Source of the DNA: Nostoc carneum NIES-2107
GTDB taxonomy: Bacteria > Cyanobacteriota > Cyanobacteriia > Cyanobacteriales > Nostocaceae
Direction of reading: 5' to 3'
Assembly: GCA_002368155.1 (NCBI GenBank)
Contig: AP018180.1
Location: 7,806,561 to 7,870,560 of the forward strand
Length of the DNA: 64,000 bases
Part shown: positions 15,577 through 59,240 of the stretch, piece by piece
Layout of the letters: each line of letters begins with the position of its first letter
Position numbering within the stretch: position 1 is the stretch's first letter
Made by a program: the position numbers and the translations under genes
The notes under the pieces: model-generated
The model's input: the letters and a program-made list of their open reading frames with translations, nothing else
The model's database searches: none
What the model was told of the DNA's origin: nothing

Positions 15577-15608
15577 AAATACGGTAAGCCAGTAGAGTTA
15601 ATGTATTT
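15577..15608. promoter_or_regulatory. Dyad operator candidate, site A
   Basis: AAATACGGTAA, a 10-bp spacer (15588-15597), then TTAATGTATTT. It lies about 105 bp upstream of the SDR start on the minus strand, the first gene of the SDR/AtsK/LLM/LLM/GST operon. It is one of seven such sites in the window, all with an exact 10-bp spacer. The rest of the 756-bp gene-free stretch 15474-16229 is AT-rich, with a repeat remnant and a hairpin. Confidence 0.65.
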
Positions 15609-15934
15609 TATAGCTGTAGAAGAAATTATCATAGACAATCTGAATAATCAAGCACCGTGTAAACCTACTTTTTTAAGCATAAATTTACACATTTAGCTTT
15701 TCTAATTATTTGCTAAATGTCTGGGAAAAGTTCAATTTTACTCTCTAAATGTAGGTATTTTTTATTAAAAATAAAGATTATTTTTGAGTATGATGCGTGC
15801 ATTTTTTTGATAAAAATACACAGGTTAATATTTATATTTTAATTAGTGCCAACCAAAAATTAATTAATAAATTAATGAAAAACTTATACCTAAAATATCA
15901 GCTTGGTTAACTATATTTACACAATATGAATAAT

Positions 15935-15966
15935 GTAGGGTGCGTTGTCGCCTAGTGCAACACACC
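15935..15966. repeat. Remnant of the GTAGGGTG palindromic repeat
   Basis: GTAGGGTGCGTTGTCGCC followed by GTGCAACACACC resembles the two ends of the element at 1926-2032, brought together with most of the interior deleted. It lies in the long gap 15474-16229. Confidence 0.45.
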
Positions 15967-16166
15967 AAAGCAATATGAATATGTATTTGCAGCTAATAAT
16001 CCTTAGCAAGATAACTTGATTAGTTGTAGAAGAAGCCAAGACCAACCTCCAGGAAATTTAATAAGCGATCGCTCCGGGGCTTATTACAATATTTTATCGG
16101 TTCATCATGAATCAAATTGAGCAATAATCCGTTATAATTCACACTTATTCCTTGTCCTCAATCAAT

Positions 16167-16195
16167 TTCTGAGTGATGTTTTCCATCGCTCAGAA
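16167..16195 (-). terminator. Hairpin downstream of the deaminase gene
   Basis: Arms TTCTGAGTGATG (16167-16178) and CATCGCTCAGAA (16184-16195) form a 12-bp stem with one wobble pair and a 5-base loop. It sits 35 bp past the stop of the minus-strand deaminase gene. It lacks a strong U-tract, so termination is probable rather than certain. Confidence 0.5.
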
Positions 16196-16229
16196 TTATT
16201 TATTATTTGGCAAAGATTACAAAATTCTG

Positions 16230-16670
16230 TTACAGTTTCAAACCCTTTAATAGATATTTTTCTAGAAAATGATTCACTTCCTCAGCACATAACCCGACAT
16301 GAACTATTTTCCCTGCTGCTTGGAGAATATCTAATCCTTTACCGTGATTGCGCGGATCTGGATCGACTAGCGAGACATATATTTCTTGAATGCGTGGATC
16401 TTTGGCGATCGCCAAAGCACAAGAGGGTGTGCGTCCTTGAAAAGAACAAGGTTCAAGAGTGACGTACATTTGCAAAAACGGTAAATCTTGACCTTGAATG
16501 TAGGTGAGTGCATCAGCCTCAGCGTGGTGTTTTCCTGGTGAATGCGTATATCCTAGTGCTACTATCTGGCCAGCATGGACTATGACACAACCCACTGGTG
16601 GATTAGGTAAGCATTCTGGTAAAGCTTTTTTGCTGTGCGCTAGAGCAGCCAGCATATATTTATCGTTCAT
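16230..16670 (-). CDS. RibD-type deaminase domain, stand-alone
   Basis: This 146-residue cytidine deaminase-fold protein has the zinc signature H49-A-E51 and C75...C84 in LEPCSFQGRTPSC. That is the pattern of the N-terminal half of RibD, which deaminates diaminohydroxyphosphoribosylaminopyrimidine in riboflavin synthesis. The C-terminal reductase half is absent; the protein ends at residue 146. Either the reductase is encoded elsewhere or this is a repurposed deaminase. It sits alone between the two organosulfur gene blocks. A link to the heavy flavin demand of the nearby monooxygenases is tempting but unproven. Confidence 0.8.
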   Translation of the reverse strand: MNDKYMLAALAHSKKALPECLPNPPVGCVIVHAGQIVALGYTHSPGKHHAEADALTYIQGQDLPFLQMYVTLEPCSFQGRTPSCALAIAKDPRIQEIYVSLVDPDPRNHGKGLDILQAAGKIVHVGLCAEEVNHFLEKYLLKGLKL

Positions 16671-17084
16671 TTCTTGAATATCTGTGTAAACAACTGATAA
16701 CCCTCTAATCCCTGCTCCCAGATACTTTGCAATATTTAATGTTTGACAACCTAATTATTCGTATATCATATACTTGTGTTTGCCAGCACATATTTTTTTG
16801 GATGTATTGTGTAAGCTTTATGTTTAATGTCTGGTAATTAGGTGAATACCTGAACGCCTGACACAACTAACTCAAAGCTTTACAGTAAAAGGATTTTATA
16901 AATCTGCTATCCAAATACAAGTATTTTTTGGGCATATATCATGCTATCAAGCCAATAGATGAGTTTTGAGCAGTTAAGAATTAGCCAAACTTTTGTAGCA
17001 GCAGTCAAAGACTGATGTTACTGAAAAAGTGATTTGCTACGCGCTGTATAAGCGATAGCACCATTTAAGAATAGAGAAAAGCGG
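16671..17084. other. Gene-free upstream region of the third long LLM gene
   Basis: This 414-bp AT-rich stretch separates the deaminase gene from the plus-strand LLM cluster. It should hold the promoter of 17085-18449. I found no copy of the 32-bp dyad in it. A 14-bp palindrome AAATACAAGTATTT at 16913-16926 shares the half-site core but has the wrong spacing. No RNA gene or ORF was seen. Confidence 0.5.
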
Positions 17085-18449
17085 ATGAGCAAAAAACGTC
17101 AGTTTCGTTTAGGTGCATTTATTCAAGCCACTGGACATCATGTCTCTGCATGGCGACATCCTGATACACAAATAGATGCTGGGTTGAATTTCGAGCATTA
17201 CAAGGAAATTACCCAGACAGCCCAACGCGGCTTATTTGATGCAGTTTTTCTTGCAGATAGTCCAGGAGTTTGGGGTAGCGCTCCCGAACATCAGAGTCGT
17301 AATGGCAAAATTGTCCATTTCGAGCCTGTGACTCTCTTCTCTGCTTTGTCTTCCGTAACTCAAAACATCGGCTTTATCGCTACCGCCTCCACTACATACG
17401 AAGAACCCTACACCCTTGCACGTAAGTTTGCCTCTTTAGATTACTTGAGTAACGGACGCGCCGGTTGGAATGTAGTTACCACAGGTAACGATAACGCCGC
17501 AGCTAATTTTGGACTTGAGCATCACCCAGACCACAGCTTGCGTTATGAACGTGCTGAAGAGTTTGTGGAAGTCGTCAAAGGACTGTGGGATAGTTGGGAT
17601 GATGATGCCTTTATTCGCGACAGAGAATCAGGTATTTATTTCGATACAGATAAGCTGCATATACTCAACCATAAAGGCAAACATTTCTCTGTTAAAGGCC
17701 CCTTAAACGTTGGTCGTCCCCCCCAAGGCTACCCGGTGATTGTGCAAGCTGGAGCCTCGGAAGCTGGGCGAGATTTAGCTGCGCGTACTGCGGAAGTTAT
17801 CTTCACCGCCAATCAAACCCTCGCCGATGCACAGGAATTTTATGCCGATGTCAAAGGTAGATTGGCGAAATATGGACGCTCCCCCGATGACCTGAAAATT
17901 ATGCCTGGTGCTTTCCCCATCATTGGGCGCACAGAGGAAGAAGCTCAAGAGAAATACGAGTTTCTGCAATCATTGATCCATCCTGATGTCGCTTGGGGCA
18001 TTCTCAAGAATTATTACAAAGGCGTAGATCTATCGAAATATTCTTTAGATGATATAGCTCCAGAACTACCCACCGACACCAACACTAATAAGAGCCGTCT
18101 GAAACTAGTTAAAGATTTGGCTACTCGTGGGAGTCTGACACTGCGTCAGTTGTACCTCTCTCTCGCTACTGCAAGAGGCCATCGCACCATACTGGGTACT
18201 CCCGAAACTATTGCCGATCAACTAGAAGAATGGTTTAACAACGGTGCAGCAGATGGCTTTAATATCATGCCCCCAATTCTGCCTACAGGATTAGATGAGT
18301 TTGTGAATTTAGTTGTCCCCGTTCTGCAAAAACGCGGACTGTTCCGCACTGAATACGAGGGTACTACCTTGCGTGAAAATCTAGGATTGCGTCGTCCTGG
18401 TAATCGTTTTGCTGGTCAAAAAGCAAATGAGCGATTGGTATCGGCCTGA
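17085..18449 (+). CDS. LLM flavin-dependent monooxygenase, NtaA/SnaA/DszA group (copy 3)
   Basis: This 454-residue protein is the third member of the long luciferase-like group in the window. It has FRLGAFIQATGHHVSAWRHP at the start, ASLDYLSNGRAGWNVVTT, GPLNVGRPPQGYPVIVQAG, and RGLFRTEYEGTTLRENLGL at the end. It is clearly related to the genes at 10794 and 12173, but more distant from each than they are from each other. It uses FMNH2 and O2 by family. It opens a plus-strand cluster with an amidohydrolase (196 bp downstream), an FAD oxidoreductase and an aldo-keto reductase. Confidence 0.85.
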   Translation: MSKKRQFRLGAFIQATGHHVSAWRHPDTQIDAGLNFEHYKEITQTAQRGLFDAVFLADSPGVWGSAPEHQSRNGKIVHFEPVTLFSALSSVTQNIGFIATASTTYEEPYTLARKFASLDYLSNGRAGWNVVTTGNDNAAANFGLEHHPDHSLRYERAEEFVEVVKGLWDSWDDDAFIRDRESGIYFDTDKLHILNHKGKHFSVKGPLNVGRPPQGYPVIVQAGASEAGRDLAARTAEVIFTANQTLADAQEFYADVKGRLAKYGRSPDDLKIMPGAFPIIGRTEEEAQEKYEFLQSLIHPDVAWGILKNYYKGVDLSKYSLDDIAPELPTDTNTNKSRLKLVKDLATRGSLTLRQLYLSLATARGHRTILGTPETIADQLEEWFNNGAADGFNIMPPILPTGLDEFVNLVVPVLQKRGLFRTEYEGTTLRENLGLRRPGNRFAGQKANERLVSA

Positions 18450-18645
18450 ATATTAGTAGTGGACTGATCTACCTAACTTCCATGATTGTGATGGGCAATT
18501 TGCCTACTCTATAAGATTTATAAACATTTGATCAATGCTTAAGCTCAACTGCTTCAAGCCCTCTGTTTGCAGACCGCCACCATTTTGAGGTGCGCCTCAT
18601 GCTCTGCATACCCTGAAAACCTTAGCTAAAAATAAGGAAAGAAAA

Positions 18646-29945: not shown

Positions 29946-30276
29946 TCTTCCCGATACTCACACCTGTCTAGGAGAAAAAGTCAATTTCAAGCAAGGAATT
30001 TTCGCTGCATTAACTAACTCAATGCTTGACTAAAAGTGATTTATAGCTTTTATTGAAAAGCTATTTCTTACCGGATTTTCTTACTAAGTCTCCTGACCAA
30101 GATAAATACTCTCACGGAACAGTATTGTCAGCAGACTTGATTTTGCATCTATTTCTGTGATACTGTGCGTTCATTGCAAAATACTGTTAATCGATAGATT
30201 TTTAGTAGTTAATTATTGTACAGCGTGCTCGTCACACTGCAAAGCCACAGTTTGCAAGGAATGGGAATCACCCCTT

Positions 30277-30933
30277 ATGCCCAAAGATTGGTTTGAATGG
30301 CACGATCTCTATAATACGGAACCAAAATTACAACAACGCCTAGAAATCGTGCGGGAATACATCACCTACAGCTTAGATGCGTCTCCAGCAGGAAGAATCC
30401 GTGTAGTTAGTGTTTGCGCTGGTGATGGTAGAGATTTACTTGGAACCTTAGCAAATCACCCCCGCGCTCAAGATGTCTATGCAAGACTGGTGGAATTAAA
30501 CCCCAACTTAGTTGAACGTGGAAAAGCAACTATAGAATCATTGGGTTTGGCAAAGCAAATAGAATTTATCAATGGTGATGCAACTATCTCCGCTAATTAT
30601 GTAGGAGCAGTACCCGCAGATATTGTGATTGTCTGTGGTGTGTTTGGTAATTTAGCTGATGAAGCTGAACTCAAACGCTTGCTAGATAATTTGAGTTTTC
30701 TAAGTAAAAAAGGTGCTTTTGTTCTTTGGACTCGCGGACATTCTAACGGTACTGCTTACTCTGACACTGTGCGGCAAGTTTTACAAGCATCTCAATTTGA
30801 AGAAGTTAAGTTTAAACTCACCGCTACGGGAGACATGGGTGTAGGTATTAATCGTTATATTGGTGAAAATTTACCTGCGCCAAAAGAGCAACAATTATTT
30901 GTATTTTCTGGTGTTCCCCATAAAGCCAGGTAA
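30277..30933 (+). CDS. SAM-dependent methyltransferase-like protein
   Basis: The ATG at 30277 (MPKDWFEWHDLYNTEP) gives 218 residues; an in-frame ATG at 30157 would add 40 residues that look unlike the family. The Rossmann motif is RVVSVCAGDGRDLLGTL, followed by ARLVELNPNLVERGKATIESLGL and FINGDATISANYVGAVPADIVIVCG with separating residues, as in class I methyltransferases. The glycine loop CAGDGRD is typical of a family of uncharacterised bacterial methyltransferases. The substrate is unknown. Confidence 0.7.
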   Translation: MPKDWFEWHDLYNTEPKLQQRLEIVREYITYSLDASPAGRIRVVSVCAGDGRDLLGTLANHPRAQDVYARLVELNPNLVERGKATIESLGLAKQIEFINGDATISANYVGAVPADIVIVCGVFGNLADEAELKRLLDNLSFLSKKGAFVLWTRGHSNGTAYSDTVRQVLQASQFEEVKFKLTATGDMGVGINRYIGENLPAPKEQQLFVFSGVPHKAR

Positions 30934-37183: not shown

Positions 37184-38203
37184 TCAGGAAACTGAAGACA
37201 GAACTGCCTCAGTTGGTTGTGAATGTTGCACTTTGGGAGTAACTTCCTGGGCAAATAATTTCATTGTTCGCTGCACAACTTCGTGGGGAAGTCCTGGTAG
37301 GTGAATTTTGACTCCCAGGCGGTCTACTTTAGTATCAACAATATATTCGTTAAGTTTTGCAGCAACAGTTGCAGGCGAACCCACAATGTAGTTAATGCGA
37401 CTAAGCATATCTGCTAAATCTTTTGGCGGCCCAGGGGGGATACGCCCCTGACGCTGCGCTTCAATATATATGGGCAATTTTTCCCTCACACTAAAGAATA
37501 CTTCGGCAGCTTGGGCAACTGTCTGTTGAGCTTCGGCATCAGTTTCACCGACGTATACCAATCGAAACCCTCGCACCGCTCCAGTTCCACCGGCTTGTCT
37601 ATAAATATCGCTATAAATGTTTTGAGCAGTTGCGCCTTCGCCTTGTCCAACTAGTAAATTTAACCCACGTTGAGCAGCCAGAACAATGGTATCGCGATCG
37701 CGCACTCCTAACCAAAACAATTGCTCTAATCCTGTACGCGGTGGTGGGGTAATTTGGTCACCTTGGTGTTGTGGCGAGAGATAATCCAATACCTCTATCA
37801 GTTGTTGGCGAAATAATTGATATTTTTCAGTTTGCTGAAAGTTTTTATGCTTGGTATCACCAGCACTACCGTGACCTAATCCAAATATCACCCGACCACC
37901 GGACAATAAATCGAGTAATGACACAACTTCAGCAAATCGTAGTGGATTTTCTAAGGTGAGAATTTTGATTGCGGTTCCCAGTTTAATTTTTGTCGTTTCC
38001 GCTGCTAACCTAGCGATGAATACTTCTGGTACTGGTAATCGACCATAGAAAGCTTGTTCTCTGACAAAATGATGTTCTCCAAAAGAGCAGGAATCAAAAC
38101 CTAGTGTTTCTGCCAATTGCACATCAGCAATTGTTTGAGCAAAAAATTCCCGGTCTTCAACTTTGGAGCTAGCCCACATTTGGTGGAACAATCCAATTGT
38201 CAT
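37184..38203 (-). CDS. LLM flavin-dependent oxidoreductase, luciferase-like group
   Basis: This 339-residue luciferase-like barrel is of the shorter group. It begins TIGLFHQMWASSKVEDREFF, continues GFDSCSFGEHHFVREQAF, and has LLDLLSGGRVIFGLGHGSAG as the flavin-phosphate region. It resembles bacterial luciferase alpha/beta-like monooxygenases more than SsuD. A dyad operator candidate (38432-38463) lies about 230 bp before its start. Another LLM gene (38643-39707) lies upstream on the same strand. FMNH2- and O2-dependence are from family. The substrate is unknown. Confidence 0.85.
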   Translation of the reverse strand: MTIGLFHQMWASSKVEDREFFAQTIADVQLAETLGFDSCSFGEHHFVREQAFYGRLPVPEVFIARLAAETTKIKLGTAIKILTLENPLRFAEVVSLLDLLSGGRVIFGLGHGSAGDTKHKNFQQTEKYQLFRQQLIEVLDYLSPQHQGDQITPPPRTGLEQLFWLGVRDRDTIVLAAQRGLNLLVGQGEGATAQNIYSDIYRQAGGTGAVRGFRLVYVGETDAEAQQTVAQAAEVFFSVREKLPIYIEAQRQGRIPPGPPKDLADMLSRINYIVGSPATVAAKLNEYIVDTKVDRLGVKIHLPGLPHEVVQRTMKLFAQEVTPKVQHSQPTEAVLSSVS

Positions 38204-38431: not shown

Positions 38432-38463
38432 AAATACGGTAAACTGATAAATTTACTGTACTT
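38432..38463. promoter_or_regulatory. Dyad operator candidate, site B
   Basis: AAATACGGTAA, 10-bp spacer, TTACTGTACTT. It lies in the 439-bp gap between two minus-strand LLM genes, about 230 bp upstream of the start of the gene at 37184-38203. The rest of the gap is AT-rich upstream and a purine/pyrimidine-rich repeat near 38520-38640. Confidence 0.6.
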
Positions 38464-38642: not shown

Positions 38643-39707
38643 CTACACAGGCTGTAAATGTCGGACGCGGGGGATAACTTCTTCAGCAAAGCGGGTCATT
38701 TCGCGGACAAAGGGATTGAATTGCAGCATAAATGTATCGATACCTGCATCAGAAAAAGCGGCAATTCTGGTAGCAACTGTGTCGTAGCTGCCAACTAAAC
38801 CTGCGGCTGTGCCACCATTACCACCAACGGCAGGATTTTTAGCGAAGAGTCGGAACATAACTGCATCTGGATCGACACCTTTCGCCACGCTTAATTTTAA
38901 ATGTTCTTCTTTGCTCTGAAGTTCTGTAAGTCGCTGTAGTTCCTCTTGCGCTTCTGCATCGGTAGGTCTAGCAATGACGAAGGCTGATAAACCAAAACGC
39001 ACGGGTTGAGGTAGCGATCGCGGACGGCTCAATACTTGCTTAATTACCTGACGTACATCTTCGATTGGCTGACCGTTGATAAAGTAGATATCTGCTTGTT
39101 CCGCCGCTAAAATCTGGGCGGGATCAGATGCACCTCCTAAGTAGATTGGGGGATGGGGCTTGGCGATGGAGGTAGGACGTAAGCTTAAATCTGTGATTTT
39201 GAAATATTCTCCCTCAAAGTTAACCTTTTCCCCACTCCACAAAGCTCTGACCACTTTTAACCATTCACCAGAATACCGGTAGCGTTCATCATGGGGAGGA
39301 AAGGGAATATTTGTGCGTTCCATTTCTGGACGGAACCAAGCGCTAATCAAATTGATGGCAAACCGTCCGCGACTAATTGTATCAATCCCTAAAGCCATCT
39401 TCGCTAAAACAGCTGGATGGAATAGTAAAGGCTTAATGGCGGCGATAATCTCAATTTTTTCTGTCGCCTCAGCTAAAGCCGCAGAAGCTGTCCAAGTTTC
39501 TAACTGCTCTAACTCTAAACTGCGTGGGTTGGCGAGATGCTGTGCCACCAAGGTTGTAGCGTATCCCAAGCGTTCAGCTTCTAAAATCAGCGATCGCGAT
39601 CGCTCATAACTCGCATCGATGGGTTCATCTTGAGTATCTAGAGGGCCAAAGTTACCACCAACAGGTGCCCAAATACCATAACGTGGTTTTGACATGGTGA
39701 ACTCCAA
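38643..39707 (-). CDS. LLM flavin-dependent monooxygenase, SfnG/SsuD-like
   Basis: This 354-residue protein carries the sulfone/sulfonate monooxygenase pattern: KIEIIAAIKPLLFHPAVLAK, then GIDTISRGRFAINLISAW and a C-terminal FNPFVREMTRFAEEVIPR. It resembles dimethylsulfone monooxygenase SfnG and alkanesulfonate monooxygenase SsuD, which use FMNH2 to cleave C-S bonds and release sulfite or methanesulfinate. An ATG five codons in (MSKPRYG) is an alternative start. It is divergent from the TauD gene at 39894, with dyad site C (39763-39794) between them. Confidence 0.85.
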   Translation of the reverse strand: MEFTMSKPRYGIWAPVGGNFGPLDTQDEPIDASYERSRSLILEAERLGYATTLVAQHLANPRSLELEQLETWTASAALAEATEKIEIIAAIKPLLFHPAVLAKMALGIDTISRGRFAINLISAWFRPEMERTNIPFPPHDERYRYSGEWLKVVRALWSGEKVNFEGEYFKITDLSLRPTSIAKPHPPIYLGGASDPAQILAAEQADIYFINGQPIEDVRQVIKQVLSRPRSLPQPVRFGLSAFVIARPTDAEAQEELQRLTELQSKEEHLKLSVAKGVDPDAVMFRLFAKNPAVGGNGGTAAGLVGSYDTVATRIAAFSDAGIDTFMLQFNPFVREMTRFAEEVIPRVRHLQPV

Positions 39708-39762: not shown

Positions 39763-39794
39763 TAATACGGTAAATTTATCGAGTTAGTGTATTA
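39763..39794. promoter_or_regulatory. Dyad operator candidate, site C (divergent promoters)
   Basis: TAATACGGTAA, 10-bp spacer, TTAGTGTATTA. It is centred between the SfnG-like LLM gene (start 39707, minus) and the TauD-like gene (start 39894, plus), 56 and 100 bp from the two starts. It could control both. Confidence 0.7.
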
Positions 39795-39893
39795 TATTTA
39801 GAGTTGCGATCGCTTCCTGATGATCTCTTGCACTTGATAGCAACAGAAATAGACGAGTGCAAACAAACCCAGGTAAACCTCTGGAGAATTTTT

Positions 39894-40856
39894 ATGAGCA
39901 ACAAGCATATTGAAGTCAAACCAGTAGCTGGTCACATCGGTGCAGAAATCGGTGGTGTAGACCTTTCTCGTCCTCTTGCGGATGAAGCAGTAGCCGAAAT
40001 TCGCCAAGCATTATTGAAGTGGAAAGTCATATTCTTTCGCAATCAGAACATTGACCACGCAGCACAGATTGCTTTCACATCTCGTTTTGGCGAAGTAACC
40101 TATGCACATCCCCACGAGGATGAACCAATCGAAGGTTTTGCCGAAATCTTACCAATCGATCGCAGCCGCTACGAACGGAAAAATGGTCTGCGTCGTTCCA
40201 GCTACGAAAACCGTTGGCATACCGATGTGACAGCAGTTGTTAACCCACCTGCGGGGTCTATTTTGCGTGCAGTTAACGTTCCTAGCTTTGGTGGTGACAC
40301 ACAGTGGACTAATTTAGTTGCTGCTTACGAGGGACTATCAGCACCCGTGAAGGCGCTAGCAGACACATTAAAAGCACAACATCACTTCAATGCACGCTTG
40401 CGTTTATCCAGCAATAGTAAGCTTGCACAACGCATCGCCGCCAATCCCCAGGTTTCCATTCACCCAGTCGTGCGAGTTCATCCAGAAACAGGCGAACGTG
40501 CATTATTTGTGAATCCTGGTTTTACCTCCCACATTTTAGACGTATCGCCACAAGAAAGCGATTTACTACTAGAATTGTTCTTCAATCAAATCACCAAACC
40601 TGCTTATACCACCCGATTCCGGTGGAACAATGGAGACATTGCTTTCTGGGATAACCGTGCCACCGCACATTTAGCACCGCAAGATCTAGATCATATAGAA
40701 GTTGAGCGCGTACTTTATCGCACCACCATTACTGGTGATATCCCCGTCGGCCCCGATGGCTTTAGATCGCAAATAGTAGAAGGTGAGCCTTTAACTAGCG
40801 AATTACCAACTGTATTGAAAAATAAAGCCGAACAGCGACAACCCGTGCTTTCATAA
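39894..40856 (+). CDS. TauD/TfdA family dioxygenase
   Basis: The start at ATG 39894 (MSNKHIEVKPVAGHIGAEIG) is favoured by a GGAG upstream and by homology with the other TauD gene; an upstream in-frame start would add 30 unlikely residues. The 320-residue Fe(II)/2-oxoglutarate dioxygenase has H109-x-D111 (RWHTDVTAV) and H259 (NRATAHLAP). An Arg around 272-276 would bind 2-oxoglutarate. It differs from the AtsK-like gene at 13637 by a longer insert before the HxD loop (residues 75-105), which probably changes substrate choice. It is followed by a D-2-hydroxyacid dehydrogenase gene. Confidence 0.8.
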   Translation: MSNKHIEVKPVAGHIGAEIGGVDLSRPLADEAVAEIRQALLKWKVIFFRNQNIDHAAQIAFTSRFGEVTYAHPHEDEPIEGFAEILPIDRSRYERKNGLRRSSYENRWHTDVTAVVNPPAGSILRAVNVPSFGGDTQWTNLVAAYEGLSAPVKALADTLKAQHHFNARLRLSSNSKLAQRIAANPQVSIHPVVRVHPETGERALFVNPGFTSHILDVSPQESDLLLELFFNQITKPAYTTRFRWNNGDIAFWDNRATAHLAPQDLDHIEVERVLYRTTITGDIPVGPDGFRSQIVEGEPLTSELPTVLKNKAEQRQPVLS

Positions 40857-45367: not shown

Positions 45368-46171
45368 TCACTGATTAATAGAAGTAAGTTGAGGATGAGG
45401 AATATCTAGCAAGTAAGAAAGTACTTCTTTGCGCCAAGCATCATATATTGGTTCAATACCTTGGCTATTAGAACCATTAAAATTTTCTGCATCTTGCCAG
45501 CGTTGTTTGATATAAGCAGCACGCCGCTTTTGAATTTCTTCATCTAATTCTAATAATTGTGCAGCTAGTTCAGCGCGTTCATTAGGTGCAGCTTGCTCAA
45601 ATTTCTTGCGCCACCAATTAGCAATTGTCACTCGATGAATTGCTTCATCATCGCTAAATCTTTCGCTACTTTGTTGGGCTAATACTGCATCGCCAATTGT
45701 TGATGTCAGTTTATTAAACCAAACTTGGGGCAAAATATGATGTTCATAGTGCAGTTCCCAAGCAATAAATCCTAGCCAGTTACGATAGGGTATATCTTCG
45801 AGAAATTCCCAATGGCGTTCGGCTTCTTTACGAATATCGTCAATCGGATCGCGTCCAGTCAGCGCAATGACTCTTTCACGAAAAGCGATCGCATGTGCGC
45901 CGTCATCGCCAATTTGTCTACTCAAAATTAAATGCAAATCTGGGTCGGGAATCAATAAGATTGCCTTACTCGCAGCTTGCACAATAGACAAATCGTGACC
46001 ACCAGTAGCAGCCCAATATTGATAAAAATGCTCTTTTTCTGCTTCTGTAATTGGCGGACGGCTGGGATGTTCGCGAGTTAATGGTACGTGTGGCGCGTGC
46101 TGGCTAAAGAGTTTTTCCAGGTTTTCTTTTTCAAACTCTACACTCCAGCTTCGAGTTAAAGTTACAGCCAT
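45368..46171 (-). CDS. Ferritin-like diiron protein, paralogue B
   Basis: This 267-residue all-helical protein has ferritin-type metal motifs. D90-x-x-H93 lies in RQIGDDGAH, an acidic/His helix is ELHYEHHILP (E139, E143), and E176-x-x-H179 lies in FSDDEAIHR. These resemble the E/DxxH pairs of diiron oxygenases and oxidases. It is a paralogue of the gene just upstream (46204-47019; 32 bp gap), sharing HAPH near the start, the diiron motifs and the ending SYLLDIP. I do not know a characterised member. Its place in the sulfonate block and the dyad upstream of the pair suggest an O2-using or iron-handling step. Confidence 0.65.
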   Translation of the reverse strand: MAVTLTRSWSVEFEKENLEKLFSQHAPHVPLTREHPSRPPITEAEKEHFYQYWAATGGHDLSIVQAASKAILLIPDPDLHLILSRQIGDDGAHAIAFRERVIALTGRDPIDDIRKEAERHWEFLEDIPYRNWLGFIAWELHYEHHILPQVWFNKLTSTIGDAVLAQQSSERFSDDEAIHRVTIANWWRKKFEQAAPNERAELAAQLLELDEEIQKRRAAYIKQRWQDAENFNGSNSQGIEPIYDAWRKEVLSYLLDIPHPQLTSINQ

Positions 46172-46203: not shown

Positions 46204-47019
46204 CTAATCGTCAATGCTGACAAGTTTGGGTAACTGAGAAACTGGAATATCGAAGAAGTAAGACAATACCTCTTGTCGCCAAGTATCGTAAATTACACCT
46301 GTTCCTTCAACTTCAATACCCAGCGCCCGACGGCTAACTTTTTCATGCTCTTTTAAATAGGGATTGCGACGGCGTTGGACTTCTTCGTCTGCTTCTATAA
46401 CCTGGGCGGCTAACTCAGCTTTTTCTGTTAGCGAAGCTTTATCAAATTTACGTAACCACCACTCTGCAACACCTGCACGGTGAAATGTTTCATCTGGGAT
46501 AATTCTCGCTGTCGCAAAGCTGGAGGATTCTGGATCGTACAGCCTTGATAACCGCCGATTTAATGAGCCAATGGCAACAATATGATGTTCATAGTGCAGC
46601 TCGAAGGCTAAAAAGCCTAACCAACCACGTCGGGGTATATCTCCCATAAAGTCCCAATGCTTTTGCACCTGCTTTTGAATATCATCAATGGGATCGTGAC
46701 CAAATAATGTTTCTACACGCCGACGAGTATTTTCTGCGTGTGCGCCATCATCACCTAATTGGCGACTTAAAAATAACTGCAATTCTGGATCGGGAATTTT
46801 ATCAATAACGTTGGCGACAACTTGCACAATAAATAGGTCATGGGCTGCACCACCAACACGAAAATGATAAAAATTTTCTAGTTCTTCAGCTGTGGCGATC
46901 GCTTTTGGCTCTTGCAAGCGCTTTTTCGGAATATGGGGTGCGTGTTTATCAATTAACCTATCAATTGTTTCATTTTCAAATTCAATTGTCCAAGCTGGAC
47001 GAGTGATAATAACAGTCAT
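46204..47019 (-). CDS. Ferritin-like diiron protein, paralogue A
   Basis: This 271-residue protein is built like its downstream paralogue: D91-x-x-H94 (LGDDGAHAEN), FELHYEHHIV (E140, E144, H145) and E177-x-x-H180 (IPDETFHRAG). The N-terminal 60 residues share PAWTIEFENE and KHAPHIPKK type sequence with the copy. The motif order D/ExxH, then E, then ExxH fits a four-helix diiron carboxylate fold such as the oxygenases of the ferritin-like superfamily. The exact family is not recognised. The dyad at 47359-47390 lies 340 bp before the start. Confidence 0.65.
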   Translation of the reverse strand: MTVIITRPAWTIEFENETIDRLIDKHAPHIPKKRLQEPKAIATAEELENFYHFRVGGAAHDLFIVQVVANVIDKIPDPELQLFLSRQLGDDGAHAENTRRRVETLFGHDPIDDIQKQVQKHWDFMGDIPRRGWLGFLAFELHYEHHIVAIGSLNRRLSRLYDPESSSFATARIIPDETFHRAGVAEWWLRKFDKASLTEKAELAAQVIEADEEVQRRRNPYLKEHEKVSRRALGIEVEGTGVIYDTWRQEVLSYFFDIPVSQLPKLVSIDD

Positions 47020-47358: not shown

Positions 47359-47390
47359 AAATACGGTAAGTTGACCAATAAACCGTATTT
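47359..47390. promoter_or_regulatory. Dyad operator candidate, site D
   Basis: AAATACGGTAA, 10-bp spacer, AAACCGTATTT; apart from two bases it is a perfect inverted repeat. It sits in the 749-bp divergent gap 47020-47768 and probably serves the minus-strand ferritin-like pair (340 bp away). Confidence 0.7.
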
Positions 47391-47487: not shown

Positions 47488-47519
47488 AAATACAGTAGCT
47501 CGACTGGTTTGCCGTAGTT
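47488..47519. promoter_or_regulatory. Dyad operator candidate, site E
   Basis: AAATACAGTAG, 10-bp spacer, TTGCCGTAGTT. It lies 129 bp from site D in the same divergent gap and 250 bp before the class II aldolase-like gene on the plus strand, suggesting one site per direction. Confidence 0.6.
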
Positions 47520-47768: not shown

Positions 47769-48548
47769 ATGGTGCAAACTTCCATCGTCCGCAATGGTAC
47801 TCTCGTTAAACCACCAACCTTTACCTCCACAGAAACAGAGCGTCGTCATCGCAAGGAACGATTAGCAGCAGCTTTACGCATTTTTGCCCGCTTAGGTTTT
47901 GCTCAAGGATTAGGAGGACACATCACAGCCCGTGATCCGGAACTCACCGATCATTTTTGGGTAAATCCTTTTGGGATTCATTTCAGTCGCGTGCGTGTTT
48001 CTGACTTAATCTTGGTGAATGCTGAAGGTGAAGTTGTTCAAGGTAACGGCGCACTCAATCAAGCAGCATACGCTATTCACTCCCAAATTCACGAAGCCCG
48101 TCCTGATGTAGTAGCGGCGGCTCATGCTCATTCCTTCTATGGCAAAACTTGGTCAGCACTAGGTCGGTTAATTGATCCGATTACCCAAGATTCTGCGGTT
48201 TTCTACCAAGATCATGCTTTATTTGATGATTACAAAGGTATTGTGTTAGATACCAGCGAAGGCAAACGCATTGCTGAAGGATTAGGTAATAAAAAAGCGG
48301 CAATCCTCCGCAATCATGGATTATTAACTGTAGGACACACTGTAGACGAGGCGGCTTGGTGGTTCATTCGTCTAGAAGATGCGACTAAATCCCAGTTGCT
48401 AGCAGAATCCGTAGGTAAACCCATTCCTATTGAGCATGATCTCGCTTTGAGTATTCAACAACGTAATGGTACTCATGAAGCAGGTTGGCGCGCATTCCAA
48501 TATTTATGGGATGAAATTACCCGCGATCAACCAGATTTGTTGGATTGA
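47769..48548 (+). CDS. Class II aldolase/adducin-family protein
   Basis: This 259-residue class II aldolase fold has the glycine loop GLGGHITARDPELTDHFWVN and zinc ligands H119 and H121 (AAHAHSFYGKTW) with H183 (RNHGLLTVG). The catalytic Glu of FucA (which precedes a His in E-x3-H) is replaced by Ala near residue 100 (NQAAYAIHSQ). It may therefore be an adducin-like or non-aldolase member rather than a true aldolase. It opens the plus-strand run aldolase, SsuD-like LLM, GlcG-like, LLM, with site E upstream. Confidence 0.8.
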   Translation: MVQTSIVRNGTLVKPPTFTSTETERRHRKERLAAALRIFARLGFAQGLGGHITARDPELTDHFWVNPFGIHFSRVRVSDLILVNAEGEVVQGNGALNQAAYAIHSQIHEARPDVVAAAHAHSFYGKTWSALGRLIDPITQDSAVFYQDHALFDDYKGIVLDTSEGKRIAEGLGNKKAAILRNHGLLTVGHTVDEAAWWFIRLEDATKSQLLAESVGKPIPIEHDLALSIQQRNGTHEAGWRAFQYLWDEITRDQPDLLD

Positions 48549-48691: not shown

Positions 48692-49792
48692 ATGCCAGTT
48701 GAGTTCATCGGGTTAATCCGCACCAAACCTGCTTCGGAATTAAACAGTGTCCCAGGTAGTCTGGCGGATGACATTATTGACCCCGCCTATGTGCGTGAGT
48801 TCGCTCAAGCCCATGAGAAAGGGGATTTTGATAAAGTACTAATTGGCTATAGCTCTAGTAGCCCTGATGGTTTTACCGTTGCTACCCATGCAGCTGCATT
48901 TACTGAGCGCTTAGGCTTTTTGATTGCTCATCGTCCAGGCTTTGTCGCACCAACTTTAGCAGCACGCAAAGCGGCTACCCTCGACCATTTCACCAATGGT
49001 CGGATTGCGGTACATATTATTACTGGCGGTAGTGACGCTGACCAGCAAAGAGATGGTGACTGGCTTGATCATGACAATCGCTATCGTCGTACAGATGAGT
49101 ATTTAGAAATAGTCCGTCGTGTTTGGACAAGCGATACACCCTTCGATTACGAAGGAGAATTCTATCGTGTTAAAGATGCTTTCTCTGCTATCAAACCACT
49201 GCAAAAGCCTCATATTCCCCTTTACTTTGGCGGTGCATCCGGCCCAGCCGTAGAAGTAGGAGCCAAGCATAGTAATGTTTATGCATTGTGGGGTGAGCCT
49301 ATAGCCGCAGTGAAAGAACGGATTGCTCAAGTTAAAGCTGCTTTACCTCCCGATCGCTCTATTCGCTTTAGTGTATCTCTGCGTCCTATTTTGGGTGTGA
49401 CAGAAGAACAAGCTTGGGAAAAAGCCAGAAATATTTTAGGGCGGATTCAAGAACAACGGGGAGGTGCAAAAGTCGCTCCCCCAGCTAGACCACAGGCGAT
49501 AGGTTCACAACGGTTACTGGATTTCGCAGCTAAAAGCGAGATTTACGATAAGCGTTTATGGACACCGATCGCAGCTGCTACTGGTGCGGCAGGTAACACA
49601 ACTGCGCTAGTAGGAACACCAGAACAAGTTGCAGAAGCTTTAGTTGATTACTATGACGCAGGTGTCACTACATTACTAATTCGGGGCTTCGATCCGCTAC
49701 AAGATGCTATTGATTACGGGCGGGAAGTCATTCCTTTAGTACGTGCAGAAGTAGCAAAACGAGAACGTCAAGCTGTTGGAGTTGGGAGATAA
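48692..49792 (+). CDS. LLM flavin-dependent monooxygenase, SsuD-like
   Basis: This 366-residue protein is the best SsuD-type candidate in the window. It shows KVLIGYSSSSPDGFTVA, LGFLIAHRPGFVAPTLAARK, TLDHFTNGRIAVHIITGGSD, and RDGDWLDHDNRYRRTDEYLE. SsuD uses FMNH2 and O2 to turn alkanesulfonates into aldehydes and sulfite. A good Shine-Dalgarno (CAGGAG) lies before the ATG. The GlcG-like gene follows after 5 bp, so they are surely co-transcribed. The substrate range is not known. Confidence 0.85.
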   Translation: MPVEFIGLIRTKPASELNSVPGSLADDIIDPAYVREFAQAHEKGDFDKVLIGYSSSSPDGFTVATHAAAFTERLGFLIAHRPGFVAPTLAARKAATLDHFTNGRIAVHIITGGSDADQQRDGDWLDHDNRYRRTDEYLEIVRRVWTSDTPFDYEGEFYRVKDAFSAIKPLQKPHIPLYFGGASGPAVEVGAKHSNVYALWGEPIAAVKERIAQVKAALPPDRSIRFSVSLRPILGVTEEQAWEKARNILGRIQEQRGGAKVAPPARPQAIGSQRLLDFAAKSEIYDKRLWTPIAAATGAAGNTTALVGTPEQVAEALVDYYDAGVTTLLIRGFDPLQDAIDYGREVIPLVRAEVAKRERQAVGVGR

Positions 49793-50427: not shown

Positions 50428-51612
50428 ATGATTCTTAGCCATTACCCTGGTTCAATTGTCGGAAGCGATCGCTTTTTGGCTCCGACAGATTTCCCCGACA
50501 GTCCGCTCTCCCAAGCATTGCAACAGCCTGTATTGTTGGGGTTATTTCTCCCCATCCAAGCAGGCGGTTGGAGTGCTTCTACATTACCACGCACTACCGA
50601 TTGGAGCTTTGAATACAACAAGGATTTGGTGCTAAAAACTGAGGCGCTGGGCTTTGATTTAATATTTGCACTGTCACAGTGGCTACCCAAAGGTGGCTAT
50701 GGTGGCGTGTTCAATGGTCAAGCACTTGACTCTTTTGTGACTACAGCTGCACTCACCAGCGTGACACAAAAGATTATGCTCATCTCTACAATCCATGTGT
50801 TGTACGGGCCGATTCATCCCTTGCACTTAGCTAAATATGGCGCAACACTCGACCATATATCAGGGGGGCGCTGGGGTATTAACGTGGTGACTGGACACCG
50901 CGCTGTTGAACATGAAATGTTTGGTTGGAATCGTATTGAGCATGATCATCGTTATGAACTTGCAGCTGAGTTTATCGAAGTACTGCAACGTTTATGGGGT
51001 GATAATGAAAACTTCTCATTTGAGGGTAAGTCTTCGTGGAAACTCAATGGTGCTTATGTAACGCCTAAGCCTAAATATGGCCGTCCGGTGCTAGTCAATG
51101 CTACAGGCTCAGATGCAGGTATTTCCTTTGCTGCACGCTATTCTGACATTGTGTTTATTACTAGCCCAGCAGGTTCAGATTTCCAGAGTGCCATTGAAGC
51201 GTTACCCCCACATACTAAAAGAGTAAAGCAAGCTGCACGGGATATTGGGCGGGAAGTACGGACACTCCTCAACCCAATGGTAATTAGCCGCGAAACTGAG
51301 CGCGAAACGTGGGAATATCACGATGCGATCGTTGCTCATGCTGACCCAGCTGCGCCTTCAGGCTTTAGCAGATTTGATAGTGACGCACATGCTTGGAAAG
51401 GTCGCGTCGGTAGAGATGAACCAAAGCGGCGGGCTATTGGTGGTAACATCGAGGTCATCGGTACGCCTGAGCAGGTAGTCGAGCAGTTTGTCCAGTTGAA
51501 AGAGGCGGGTATTGATGGCTTGCAGTTGAGCTTTTATGACTTTAAGCCTGATTTGGAATTTTTTGGCGATCGCATTCTCCCACTCATGAAACAGGCAGGT
51601 CTCAGGTTATAA
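50428..51612 (+). CDS. LLM flavin-dependent monooxygenase, SfnG-like
   Basis: This 394-residue protein has an N-terminal QPVLLGLFLPIQAGGWSAS, then TTDWSFEYNKDLVLKTEALG, GATLDHISGGRWGINVVTG, and GFSRFDSDAHAWKGRVG in the later barrel. The pattern (FLP..GGW, then LPRTTDWS.EYN) resembles the SfnG/RutA-type group of FMNH2-dependent monooxygenases; SfnG cleaves dimethylsulfone. It follows the GlcG-like gene after 195 bp with a palindromic repeat between. It is the last of seven LLM genes in the window. Confidence 0.8.
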   Translation: MILSHYPGSIVGSDRFLAPTDFPDSPLSQALQQPVLLGLFLPIQAGGWSASTLPRTTDWSFEYNKDLVLKTEALGFDLIFALSQWLPKGGYGGVFNGQALDSFVTTAALTSVTQKIMLISTIHVLYGPIHPLHLAKYGATLDHISGGRWGINVVTGHRAVEHEMFGWNRIEHDHRYELAAEFIEVLQRLWGDNENFSFEGKSSWKLNGAYVTPKPKYGRPVLVNATGSDAGISFAARYSDIVFITSPAGSDFQSAIEALPPHTKRVKQAARDIGREVRTLLNPMVISRETERETWEYHDAIVAHADPAAPSGFSRFDSDAHAWKGRVGRDEPKRRAIGGNIEVIGTPEQVVEQFVQLKEAGIDGLQLSFYDFKPDLEFFGDRILPLMKQAGLRL

Positions 51613-52096
51613 ATGGACATTTGCAACTGAAAATTTTACTGGGATTATCCACATAGAAGTTAGTACTTTCATAGTGAAACAATCAGGATTTTAACTGATT
51701 AATTATTTTTCTATTTAATTTTTATAGAAAAATAATTATCAAATTTTTGCCATGTTCCCCAATGTTTGATAGAGGTAAATATTCAATCAAAAATCTCTTG
51801 ATTTTGGTGATTATATATGCAATTATAATTTTCAATACCATTAAATCTACTCGCTTATGGTAGTTAAATTGGAAAGAAATTTAACTACCATCTTATTTAA
51901 TGAATTGCATACAAACTTAATTTATAGATAATTAATCTGGCGTAAAGCACAGCTTTTTATGGCTCATCTGTAATGCAATATTTGCAATGTATTTTAGCCA
52001 AATAAAATAATTTACTTAATATTACTTTACTACTAGATAATTATTTTTTAAAATTTGTTCCCTATTCCCTTTTCAATCTGTGAGGAGAGTAACCAT
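51613..52096. other. Gene-free 484-bp AT-rich gap
   Basis: This gap between the LLM gene and the SsuA-like gene (3) is very AT-rich. Its only marked feature is the perfect hairpin at 51857-51891. No dyad copy or ORF was seen. Confidence 0.5.
51857..51891. terminator. Perfect 14-bp inverted repeat
   Basis: ATGGTAGTTAAATT (51857-51870), 7-base loop, AATTTAACTACCAT (51878-51891). It lies 245 bp after the LLM stop. It may be a terminator for the upstream operon, although there is only a weak T run (CTTATTT), or a separate protein-binding site. Confidence 0.5.
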
Positions 52097-53107
52097 ATGA
52101 GGCTAAAACGCCGTGAATTGCTGGGTTTGGGTATATCAACAGCAGCTTTAGCAGCTTGCGGTAAATTGGCTAATTCTCCATCCAATACATCTACTAATGC
52201 TACCCCTGTAGCTGCTAACACTGATGTGAGTTCCACCAAACTACGTCTAGGCTTTCAACCACCATATGTTGCTGTATATGCATTAAGAGAACAAAAGTTA
52301 TTAGAGAAAGCCTTAGCAGAAAAATCAACTACTGTTGAGTTTCGCCGGATGTTATCACTCAAACCAGTGACGGAAGCTTTATCTGCTAGCGCTATAGATT
52401 TGGGTTTGGGTGGTACACCAGTAGCCGCAATTGCTGCGGGTCAACCTATTAAGATAATTGCTTTAGTTGAACGTAGTCCTAAAACCCATGCTTTGTTAGT
52501 TCTACCTAATTCACCTATCAAAAAAATTGCTGATTTAAAAGGTAAAAAGCTTGGGAATCCATCAGGGAAAAGCTACTATTTTGCGATTAGAGTATTAGAA
52601 CGTGCCGGACTCAAAGATACTGATGTAGAGTGGGTGCAAATTGAGAATGACGCAGGTAGATCTGCATTATTATCAGGTGCGATTGATGTCTGGGGAACAT
52701 GGGACCCTTTTTATGCCAGTGCTGAAGTTGCAAAAGAAGTAGTACCCTTAGTTGATGGTGAAGGTTATCTGTTAAATTATGTAGCTTTATTTGGGCGAAC
52801 AGATTATATAGAAAAGAATCCAGAGACTATACAAAAGTTTTTACAAGCCTATAAACAAGCAATATCTTGGGCAAAAGATAACCGTCAAGCAGCAGTAGAT
52901 ATTTTGGTCAAAGAAAATAAGTTATCACCACAGGCGGCTGATTTAACTTTAGGCCGTCGGAACCTGATATTTGAAGTTCCAAATGATGAGTATCGCCAAG
53001 AATTAATCAATCAATCTCAATTACTCACTCGTCTAGGACTGATCAAACAGCAACCAAATTGGGATAGCGCAATTGATACAACAGTAGCTAAAGCTGTTGT
53101 ATCCTGA
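52097..53107 (+). CDS. SsuA-like sulfonate ABC substrate-binding protein (3)
   Basis: The ATG at 52097 is chosen because GAGGAGA lies just before it and the resulting N-terminus MRLKRRELLGLGIS-type has a twin-arginine-like RRxLL and a lipobox LAAC (Cys21). This gives 336 residues. The binding domain has LRLGFQPPYVAVYALREQ, IADLKGKKLGNPSGKSYYFA and DVWGTWDPFYASAEVAKE. It would be exported and lipid-anchored to bind sulfonates or related anions. As with the other two SsuA-like proteins, no SsuBC importer is encoded nearby. A strong terminator follows. Confidence 0.85.
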   Translation: MRLKRRELLGLGISTAALAACGKLANSPSNTSTNATPVAANTDVSSTKLRLGFQPPYVAVYALREQKLLEKALAEKSTTVEFRRMLSLKPVTEALSASAIDLGLGGTPVAAIAAGQPIKIIALVERSPKTHALLVLPNSPIKKIADLKGKKLGNPSGKSYYFAIRVLERAGLKDTDVEWVQIENDAGRSALLSGAIDVWGTWDPFYASAEVAKEVVPLVDGEGYLLNYVALFGRTDYIEKNPETIQKFLQAYKQAISWAKDNRQAAVDILVKENKLSPQAADLTLGRRNLIFEVPNDEYRQELINQSQLLTRLGLIKQQPNWDSAIDTTVAKAVVS

Positions 53108-53326: not shown

Positions 53327-53358
53327 AACTACGTTAATTCGATAGACTTAATGTAGTT
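53327..53358. promoter_or_regulatory. Dyad operator candidate, site F (upstream of groESL)
   Basis: AACTACGTTAA, 10-bp spacer (53338-53347), TTAATGTAGTT; with flanking bases the arms extend to 13 bp with one mismatch. It lies 209 bp before the groES start in the 459-bp gap 53108-53566. No CIRCE element (TTAGCACTC-N9-GAGTGCTAA) is present in that gap. Confidence 0.65.
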
Positions 53359-53566
53359 TATCCTCCACGACTAGCAATTCCTAATTTTGCTCACTATTCG
53401 TTGGATTGGTTTAATTAAAAAACCTTTCATGCCTAATGTTTGGTTTGAGAAACAATAGGCATGATCAATTACCCTTGTCCAATTGAGCAAAAATTCCCTG
53501 ACATTAGTTCATCACTTAATTACACCTATTTGTTGACCTTCAAAAAGTTAGTTTGGAGAATCTTGT

Positions 53567-53878
53567 ATGGCAGCTATAGCATTAAGCGTATCTACTGTTA
53601 AACCTCTAGGCGATCGCGTTTTCATCAAGGTTAGTGAATCTGAAGAGAAAACAACGGGAGGTATTTTCTTGCCTGATAGCGCTAAAGAAAAGCCACAGGT
53701 GGGTGAAATTGTTGCAGTTGGCCCTGGTAAACGTCACGATAACGGCACCATTCACACTATAGATGTTGCCATTGGCGATAAGGTTCTTTACTCCAAGTAT
53801 GCAGGTACCGACATTAAGCTAGGTACAGAAGAGTATGTCCTCTTATCTGAAAAGGACATCTTGGCAATTGTTTCCTAG
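53567..53878 (+). CDS. groES: Co-chaperonin GroES
   Basis: This 103-residue protein is a textbook Gro[20 protein letters not shown], the mobile loop [16 protein letters not shown], and [18 protein letters not shown], ending [12 protein letters not shown]. GroES caps the GroEL ring and closes the folding chamber. A GGAG lies before the ATG. groEL starts 118 bp downstream. The upstream region carries the sulfur-block dyad rather than a CIRCE heat-shock operator, suggesting specialised control of this operon. Confidence 0.95.
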
Positions 53879-53882
53879 TTGA

Positions 53883-55637
<1,755 letters not shown>

Positions 55638-56002: not shown

Positions 56003-56023
56003 GGGCATAGGGAATCGAGCATG

Positions 56024-56143: not shown

Positions 56144-56180
56144 CAAACAGGGTGCAACTACCAACAAGGAGGAAAAAGAA

Positions 56181-57845: not shown

Positions 57846-58183
57846 TCGAGCTTGTCAGCCATCAACTGTGCATTAATTGCAATGTCTGCGTTCAAGTTTG
57901 CCCTACCAATGTCTTTGACGCAGTTCCTAACCAACCACCTGCGATCGCACGCCAGGAAGACTGTCAAACTTGCTTTATGTGTGAAGCATACTGTCCAGCA
58001 GATGCACTCTATGTTGCACCCCAATCTCATACCAATGTTGCAGTCAAAGAGGATGATTTAATTGATAGTGGGATTATGGGTGAATATCGCCGCATCTTAG
58101 GTTGGGGATATGGCAGAAAAAACAACAGTGAATTAGATACTGCTCATAAATTGCGCCAACTACCACGACCTTATCAAAGTTAG
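57842..58183 (+). CDS. AprB-like 2x[4Fe-4S] ferredoxin
   Basis: This 113-residue ferredoxin has two classical cluster motifs: C10-x2-C13-x2-C16-x3-C20-P (CINCNVCVQVCP) and C41-x2-C44-x2-C47-x3-C51-P (CQTCFMCEAYCP). The first codons overlap the stop of the AprA-like gene (ATGA), so translation is coupled. The tail (residues 60-113) lacks the long C-terminal extension of true AprB (about 150 residues) that wraps AprA. It is likely to pass electrons to or from the flavoprotein. The pair may be a short relative of the APS reductase or fumarate reductase type. Confidence 0.8.
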   Translation: MIELVSHQLCINCNVCVQVCPTNVFDAVPNQPPAIARQEDCQTCFMCEAYCPADALYVAPQSHTNVAVKEDDLIDSGIMGEYRRILGWGYGRKNNSELDTAHKLRQLPRPYQS

Positions 58184-58189
58184 TTCACT

Positions 58190-58223
58190 GTTGACGGTTG
58201 ACTGTTAACTGTTAACCGTCAAC
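58190..58223 (+). terminator. Hairpin after the AprB-like gene
   Basis: GTTGACGGTTGAC and GTTAACCGTCAAC pair with one mismatch. It starts just 7 bp past the stop and closely resembles the hairpin at 43881-43920, so the two are copies of one repeat used as terminator. Confidence 0.55.
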
Positions 58224-58262
58224 AATTTGAAACGGAATAATTTCTTTTATTATTTTTCATAA

Positions 58263-58910
58263 ATGAAGCATCTTTGTATCATTTTTGATTTGGATGGAAC
58301 ATTAGTTGATAGTGAAAAGCTTTGTAACCAAGCATTTATCGATTTGCTACCTTTTATTAATGAATCGGTTGACAGTCTGATTTGTCGATATCGTGGCAGA
58401 AAGTTGGCTTTAATTTTAGCGGATATAGAAATAAGATATGGCATAAATTTACCTATTGATTTTGAGGTCAAATATCGTCAAAGGGTGAATGAATTATTTG
58501 AATTTTCCTTACAGCCAATTCCAGGCGTTCCAGAGATGCTCAAAACGCTAGAATATCCTGTTTGTATTGCCTCAAGTGCGCCTATCGCTAAAATTCGCCA
58601 GGCTTTAAATGTCACAAATCTATCGCATTATTTTGGCGCTCGCTTATTTAGCTCTTATGAGGTAGGCTCTTGGAAACCTGACCCAGGTTTATTTTTATAC
58701 GCAGCTAATAAAATGGGATTTCCGCCAGAATCTTGTGTGGTGATTGAGGATAGCGATGTCGGAATTCAAGCTGCACATTCAGCCGGAATCTATGCTTTGA
58801 AATATTCAATAGAGGAAGAAGCAGAAGAAAAAACTAATGTATTTTCTAATATGAAATATCTGGTAAAACGGCTTGAAAATATTTACGCGCTGAAATGCGA
58901 TCGCTCATAA
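58263..58910 (+). CDS. HAD hydrolase, beta-phosphoglucomutase-like
   Basis: This 215-residue HAD phosphatase has motif I IIFDLDGTLVDSE (D9, D11), CIASSAP (motif II), KPDPGLFLYAANKMG (motif III Lys) and VIEDSDVGIQAAHSAG (motif IV). This pattern is typical of the beta-phosphoglucomutase/sugar phosphatase (YjjG/YcjU-like) branch. The substrate is unknown. It is separated from the AprB-like gene by a hairpin and from the FGE gene by 330 bp. Confidence 0.8.
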   Translation: MKHLCIIFDLDGTLVDSEKLCNQAFIDLLPFINESVDSLICRYRGRKLALILADIEIRYGINLPIDFEVKYRQRVNELFEFSLQPIPGVPEMLKTLEYPVCIASSAPIAKIRQALNVTNLSHYFGARLFSSYEVGSWKPDPGLFLYAANKMGFPPESCVVIEDSDVGIQAAHSAGIYALKYSIEEEAEEKTNVFSNMKYLVKRLENIYALKCDRS

Positions 58911-59240
58911 TAATAGCCCAGGATATGTAATAAGTTAATAACTTTTGGTGACAGGGCATATCGAGAATCGTTGCCTGAATCAGGAATCCTTCTATTGCAA
59001 TAGTCGATGAGTTGTCAGGCTATATCAATGCCAGCGAACAAAGTTCTTGACTTATTTTTGCTTAAGAGGTAGGTTATCAATATTGTCTTAAATACGGTAA
59101 CTACATCAATATATAGTATGATGCAAATTTAAAACAAGATAAACTTTTTTAAAATAGCGCAAATTCATGGCAATTTTCAATAAATGAAAAATTGCTAATT
59201 TTTTGCATATTAATAGACTGATGAATATTTATCAGCAATA
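58911..59240. other. Promoter region of the FGE-sulfatase operon
   Basis: This 330-bp stretch holds dyad site G and AT-rich sequence before the FGE start. No ORF or repeat was seen apart from the dyad. Confidence 0.5.
59090..59121. promoter_or_regulatory. Dyad operator candidate, site G
   Basis: AAATACGGTAA, 10-bp spacer, ATATAGTATGA; the left half is perfect and the right half is weaker (GTAT kept). It lies 120-165 bp before the FGE start, depending on which start codon is used. The right half also contains a TATAGT that could serve as a -10 box. Confidence 0.6.

Follow-up and report, generated by a model that had tools for sequence, protein, structure and literature searches.

A candidate operator of a genome-wide sulfur-limitation regulon, probably read by CysR, in Nostoc carneum

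Which regulator reads a palindrome that recurs upstream of organosulfur genes in Nostoc carneum NIES-2107, and how far does its regulon extend? The question is raised by a stretch of 64,000 nucleotides (C1:7806561-7870560 of the 9.36-Mb genome; hereafter the window), in which copies of a 32-bp dyad precede mainly organosulfur genes. In the reading that we favour, this dyad serves as operator for a sulfur-limitation regulon that spans the genome in Nostoc-type cyanobacteria, with the Crp-family protein CysR as its most likely binder. As judged from sequence, the operator and the regulon themselves are well supported, and CysR is the probable binder. According to passages of an eLife paper, large parts of the pathway by which cyanobacteria respond to sulfur starvation have yet to be worked out; PMC12016511 and PMC8049743 were among the papers covered. 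The main text of the CysR paper, as far as covered, contains neither "motif" nor "binding site", and no CysR binding code appears in the literature passages and listings covered, to which this statement is confined.

The palindrome and its genome-wide copies

All seven dyads listed in the original prediction were found again at their positions (Table 1). Six of them match AAATACGGTAA-N10-TTAMYGTATTT with at most three mismatches on at least one strand (nine strand-matches, vs a shuffle mean of 0.01), while the seventh, at 59090, is weaker than the other six and was picked up by the matrix. An eighth copy (30179-30210) had been overlooked, although it outscores all but one of the original seven. 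The left half is the same in four copies (15577, 38432, 47359, and 59090), one fewer than had been claimed. With genes taken from our own simple caller, all eight copies lie outside genes, as had been stated for the seven; the gene following site 30179 has its called start at 30277, and the longest open reading frame (ORF) there, 30157-30933, would contain the site. Eight window sites score at least 22, compared with a mean of 0.003 and a largest count of 1 among 300 column-permuted symmetric matrices. Equally frequent copies in random or coding regions were the finding that, by the original prediction, would speak against it; the permuted matrices came out near zero and no copy was found in a called gene.

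The refined operator consensus, AAnTACnGTAAnTCGATCGAnTTACnGTAnTT, derives from a symmetric matrix that was refined on sites of this genome, the cysR site described below among them. The middle 10 bp, originally written as a free spacer, proved to be conserved (centre TCGATCGA; positions 13, 16, 17, and 20 have about 1 bit). Across 44 oriented sites, conservation extends from about -18 to +17, or about 36 bp, with background outside, and only hexamers within or overlapping the palindrome are enriched. The palindrome falls into clusters at about ±1-4, ±6-9, and ±11-13, and in the consensus the inner triplets GTA-N12-TAC lie inside TAC-N20-GTA. An NtcA site has the form GTA-N8-TAC, a spacing that is not found here; the NtcA operator was rejected on this ground, in line with the original prediction, in which the dyad was not recognised as an NtcA site. 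A LysR T-N11-A box and a TetR-type site were also considered. An operator pair spaced 129 bp, like that at 47359 and 47488, is also present in genomes G002, G003, G004, and G007.

The genome-wide motif scan that had been proposed was run by pattern and by a hidden Markov model (HMM), and copies occur well beyond the window. The HMM, built on 20 sites, gave 106 strand-matches at E ≤ 10, and the matrix was applied only to stretches surrounding the stronger of these. These stretches hold 53 matrix matches of at least 14, of which 47 score at least 20, and none of the 53 is inside a called gene. The regulon is not local, as first suggested: 25 of the 47 good sites fall within a 184-kb organosulfur island and 22 outside it. 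The view that mainly organosulfur genes lie downstream was borne out by the families found at window and genome sites. Site neighbours include sulfonate-type binding proteins, ABC ATPases, TauD and LLM oxygenases, an OprB porin, groES, and a 2-phosphosulfolactate phosphatase, and copies also stand at the core sulfur-control genes, namely cysR, an rrf2 gene between cysE and cysK, a NIL-domain gene, a TauE-type exporter, and two rhodanese proteins. Sites at metabolic genes are mostly 50-400 bp upstream. Several scanned neighbours had no family match, and some neighbours, a glycyl-tRNA synthetase and a KDPG aldolase among them, may be bystanders across the intergenic region. Among the scanned flanking genes of this genome (some lay outside the scan), Crp was the only DNA-binding regulator family matched; a large sensor-kinase-type protein (L017:10379-15511) was also among them. 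In agreement with the prediction of a regulator acting in trans, both candidate regulators considered below are encoded outside the window, each with a copy near its own start.

The operator was also found on pANL, the sulfur plasmid of Synechococcus elongatus PCC 7942. The top four matches of the matrix (16.8, 11.4, 10.4, and 10.2) are all intergenic and within the sulfur cluster, the intergenic DNA of which makes up 4.7% of pANL. They are located in the gap between ANL43 and an Rrf2 gene, in the gap that separates cysK-epsC-srpI from a divergent gene, upstream of a DUF4242/ABC transporter run, and upstream of a carbonic anhydrase-catalase run; the fifth match (7.9) is inside a gene. None of 500 permuted matrices reached four pANL matches of at least 10, and in 20 mononucleotide shuffles of the plasmid one match of 13.2 was obtained, the others being at most 5.3. 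A passage of the eLife paper reports that srpI is induced by sulfur starvation, and srp/plasmid genes are CysR-controlled according to the title of Nicholson and Laudenbach (1995) as given in a reference list. The operator is present at these genes, the control itself being taken from that title.

CysR as the probable reader

The CysR-like Crp-family protein of N. carneum (195 aa) is encoded at C1:3153935-3154519, and the operator at 3154529 lies 9-10 bp before its start codon. The helix-turn-helix (HTH) is of the Crp type (PF13545 and PF00325), with NtcA and CRP chains among the solved relatives. The closest of these is NtcA, matched over the HTH half, with a nearly identical recognition helix. 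An AlphaFold model, used for layout only (mean predicted local distance difference test score of 61.5), shows a beta-roll/HTH layout followed by a low-confidence tail (179-195).

Operator placement at cysR is widely conserved. The best 80 of 207 loci were used; most come from relatives of Nostoc, they do not count as independent, and 15 of them have less than 9 kb of sequence. In these loci the best upstream match stops 2-18 bp short of the cysR start and scores at least 15 in 60 and at least 10 in 77; the loci below 10 are L126 (9.9), L183 (9.7), and L174 (-7.0). In a reversed-sequence control, 1 of 2149 windows scored at least 15. The context is one of sulfur genes, with cysE in 49 and the NIL gene in 46 of the 80 loci, and in G026 cysR follows an ABC ATPase, CysA by eye only. 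We also surveyed 120 genomes of the order for strong sites (E ≤ 0.001, with stricter filters that lose weak sites). Such sites were found in 16 genomes, 14 of the 44 in which a CysR match extends to residue 195 vs 2 of the 76 others (p 1.1e-5). At the genus level, the only count corrected for kinship, they occur in 12 of 31 genera with CysR and 0 of 39 without (p 1.3e-5); the 44 genomes and 31 genera were counted by hand. In G071, which is among these two exceptional genomes, the CysR match is partial (residues 11-110, the tail being outside the match) and a site of 32.8 lies upstream of it; when G071 is counted as CysR-bearing the figures become 15 of 45 vs 1 of 75 (p 8.5e-7). Comparison with related cyanobacteria, another check proposed at the outset, covered 39 genomes including this one. 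The pattern occurs in 15 of them, its position is conserved in other genera, and 14 of the 15 encode a CysR with full C-terminus, G009 being the exception. Eight relatives have CysR and no pattern match; in four of these (G008, G010, G015, and G037) the matrix finds a site at the usual place.

In the mechanism that we propose, CysR would bind the operators when sulfur is short and switch the scavenging genes on, and the copy at the cysR start would limit CysR synthesis. Autorepression would fit the position of the sites at the two regulator genes, which extend into the ribosome-binding region. A second layer of the circuit may be formed by a CymR-like Rrf2 protein, whose gene lies between cysE and cysK and has the same kind of copy. 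The system resembles that of CysR in S. elongatus PCC 7942, a Crp-family protein tied to sulfur genes, in having the dyad upstream of the pANL sulfur genes, and differs from it in a regulon with many organosulfur-scavenging genes and 47 good sites. The operator would give CysR a clear target code that is directly testable, predicts an organosulfur regulon genome-wide, and would link a chromosomal regulator to the sulfur plasmid.

Several observations weigh against CysR as the binder. The likeness to S. elongatus CysR is drawn from family, context, and operator rather than from a sequence comparison. The recognition helix is NtcA-like, yet the triplet spacing GTA-N12-TAC is unlike that of NtcA, and the palindrome layout would match an Rrf2 operator more closely than it would the site of one Crp dimer. 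No -10 element was found at a fixed distance downstream of the 44 oriented sites, so that control may be by activation or by repression. Of the eight CysR relatives lacking a pattern match, G023 and G033 have the site further off and G020 and G029 have none. The G020 CysR is 72% identical, yet the genome has no pattern match and cysR no site, and the neighbouring Rrf2 match is broken by five in-frame stops. Conversely, G009 (seven sites) and G057 (one site) lack a tailed CysR and encode only tail-less paralogs.

Two side observations concern these exceptional genomes. The interrupted Rrf2 match of G020 (C1:1048833-1050215, five in-frame TAG) stands next to an intact CysR gene that is without operator, and a decay of the circuit is possible. 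G009, which has neither a tailed CysR nor the Rrf2 type found beside cysE, carries a 25-kb contig (C36, L056) with six operators of at least 26 and the same G+C content as the other G009 stretch read.

A candidate Rrf2 regulator and a possible CysK sensor

A protein with an Rrf2 domain (PF02082; G000:C1:4590774-4591154) is encoded beside cysE and cysK, and CymR (2y75) is among the PDB matches of an Rrf2 ortholog. In one alternative, this CymR-like repressor, ending in MYYI, is the binder and acts as CymR does with CysK in Bacillus, CysR being merely one of its targets. We regard this as doubtful. Several points favour it. In 9 of 12 further loci of this type, the distance from the end of the site to the rrf2 start is 2 bp, and in a second set the site lies 0-9 bp before rrf2 in 32 of 52 loci and scores at least 15 in 40 of 52, the start being nominal (aligned to one TTG-initiated ORF). 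IscR-type Rrf2 operators have a comparable length and three-cluster layout, an Rrf2 gene adjoins a pANL site, a 51% relative in G015 also has a site 35 bp upstream, and G020, in which the neighbouring rrf2 is broken, lacks the cysR site. Rrf2 matches reaching the MYYI tail occur in 35 of the 39 relatives, including G009. However, in the genome of the window the site at rrf2 is weak (15.6), and of the 16 genomes with strong sites, 7 (G026, G044, G054, G057, G065, G071, and G120) lack the type that adjoins cysE/cysR, which implies that this type is dispensable for persistence of the operator. In G065, for instance, there is only a remnant of that Rrf2, yet strong operators stand at cysR and upstream of cysK. 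Other Rrf2 proteins were present in all nine genomes checked, and since a general type is near-universal, an Rrf2 protein of that type may still be the binder. This general type adjoins a cysK in L230, L234, and L237, and in the four loci read (those three and L239) it has no site of at least 14.

Both proteins might read the same DNA, with CysR activating and Rrf2 repressing through overlapping contacts and either one preserving the operator. The two genes carry operators near their starts and share one locus (cysK-rrf2 / cysE-cysR / NIL), which is complete in 35 of the 80 loci, cysR being the only one of the five genes in 19; in the window's genome it is split into one part at 4.59 Mb (cysE, rrf2, and cysK) and another at 3.15 Mb (cysR and NIL, with sites of 29.1 and 31.0). 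A palindrome of 32-36 bp in three clusters would also have room for two kinds of contact. In many genomes, however, the sites persist alongside just one of these regulators, and we consider joint binding rather improbable. That the dyad is a dispersed repeat or a chance AT-rich palindrome without regulatory meaning, as its many copies in one genome might suggest, can be dismissed: the repeat was rejected because the flanks of the copies are unrelated, and the permuted matrices, the drop to background outside the palindrome, the absence from called genes, and the conserved position in other genera already refute both forms.

CysR remains our preferred binder, and its C-terminus suggests how sulfur status might be sensed. 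The C-terminal sequence is W[YH]Y[EQ]I for CysR (all 92 loci read, 80 + 12), MYYI for Rrf2 (54 of 55 matches), and DGAGI for the neighbouring CysE (51 of 51). All three have a final isoleucine, through which known partners dock into cysteine synthase (CysK). To our knowledge, no other Crp-family regulator has been proposed to sense via CysK, although no dedicated search was made. According to PMC4961446, isoleucine is the usual last residue of CysK partners, and CymR occurs in a complex with CysK; this complex is also described in PMC2869319. By analogy, the isoleucine tails suggest that CysK docks both CysR and Rrf2 and senses sulfur for both, reporting sulfur status through these tails. The full circuit, in which CysR and an unrelated, CymR-like Rrf2 both have the isoleucine tail of serine acetyltransferase and are read by CysK, O-acetylserine determines which of them is free, and one shared operator of 32-36 bp serves dozens of organosulfur-scavenging sites, is put forward tentatively. 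It shares with CymR of Bacillus and Staphylococcus an Rrf2 protein that adjoins cysK and ends in isoleucine, and differs in the pairing with a Crp-family protein whose last residue is isoleucine too, and in the same operator standing at both genes. Nutrient regulons with a palindromic operator are known as a general kind; the two-regulator layout is unusual, and docking of two unrelated regulators on CysK provides a concrete sensor hypothesis.

Genes beside the operators

The operators of the window and the genes beside them are summarized in Table 1.

Table 1. Operator copies and adjoining genes in the window (window coordinates).
Feature	Position	Strand	Evidence and context
Operator	15577..15608		Matrix 31.4 and exact pattern match; ~100 bp upstream of SDR/TauD pair
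Operator, overlooked at first	30179..30210		Matrix 36.0; HMM E 6.4e-4; 67 bp upstream of methyltransferase-like gene
Operator	38432..38463		Matrix 36.1; upstream of LLM monooxygenase
Operator	39763..39794		Matrix 31.9; between divergent SfnG-like and TauD-like genes
Operator, first of pair	47359..47390		Matrix 35.8; between divergent 46204-47019 (-) and aldolase
Operator, second of pair	47488..47519		Matrix 27.8; same divergent region
Operator	53327..53358		Matrix 35.6; upstream of groES
Weaker operator	59090..59121		Matrix 24.1; upstream of FGE-like gene
TauD-like dioxygenase	13637..14551	-	NF007104 278.5 bits, below cut-off; second gene after first operator
SDR oxidoreductase	14673..15473	-	Family search; first gene after first operator
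Methyltransferase-like gene	30277..30933	+	PF12147
LLM-class monooxygenase	37184..38203	-	Family search
SfnG-like LLM monooxygenase	38643..39695	-	TIGR04021 239.3 bits, below cut-off (ORF 38643-39707 as query)
TauD-like dioxygenase	39894..40856	+	Family search (longer ORF 39804-40856 as query)
Class II aldolase, opens SsuD-like/SfnG-like run	47769..48548	+	NF004855 over cut-off
SsuD-like alkanesulfonate monooxygenase	48692..49792	+	Family model below cut-off
SfnG/RutA-like LLM monooxygenase	50428..51612	+	Family model below cut-off
SsuA-family sulfonate-binding protein	52055..53107	+	TIGR01728 over cut-off
GroES (Cpn10)	53567..53878	+	PF00166
FGE/SUMF-like protein (label of the original prediction)	59241..60290	+	GldK, SenA, and EgtB models below cut-off

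The genes 46204-47019 and 45368-46171, which adjoin each other next to the double operator, had been labelled a ferritin-like pair; neither gave a family match at the limits used. At 53327-55637, an operator heads groES and a 584-aa ORF within the organosulfur island, and a site in G007 (L069:12932) has a flank similar to that of the groES site. Elsewhere, four site-flanking genes (L042:10320-11162, L039:10269-10913, L044:10089-10571, and L033:13549-14370) had no family match at the limits used, and three of them are far from the island. In G012 (L058:4053-5224), an ORF that is TetR-like by eye (4053-4640, 340 bp from the site) and a divergent TauE-like ORF lie on either side of a weak site at 4980 (18.0), and the former may be a third regulator. 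Within the organosulfur island, a NifE-like protein (C1:7931805-7933217, called in part as L034:1395-2657; TIGR01283 over cut-off) is encoded by a gene that starts 0.6-0.8 kb downstream of the sites 7930969 and 7931198; nearer to these sites is a divergent gene, an aldo/keto reductase by eye.

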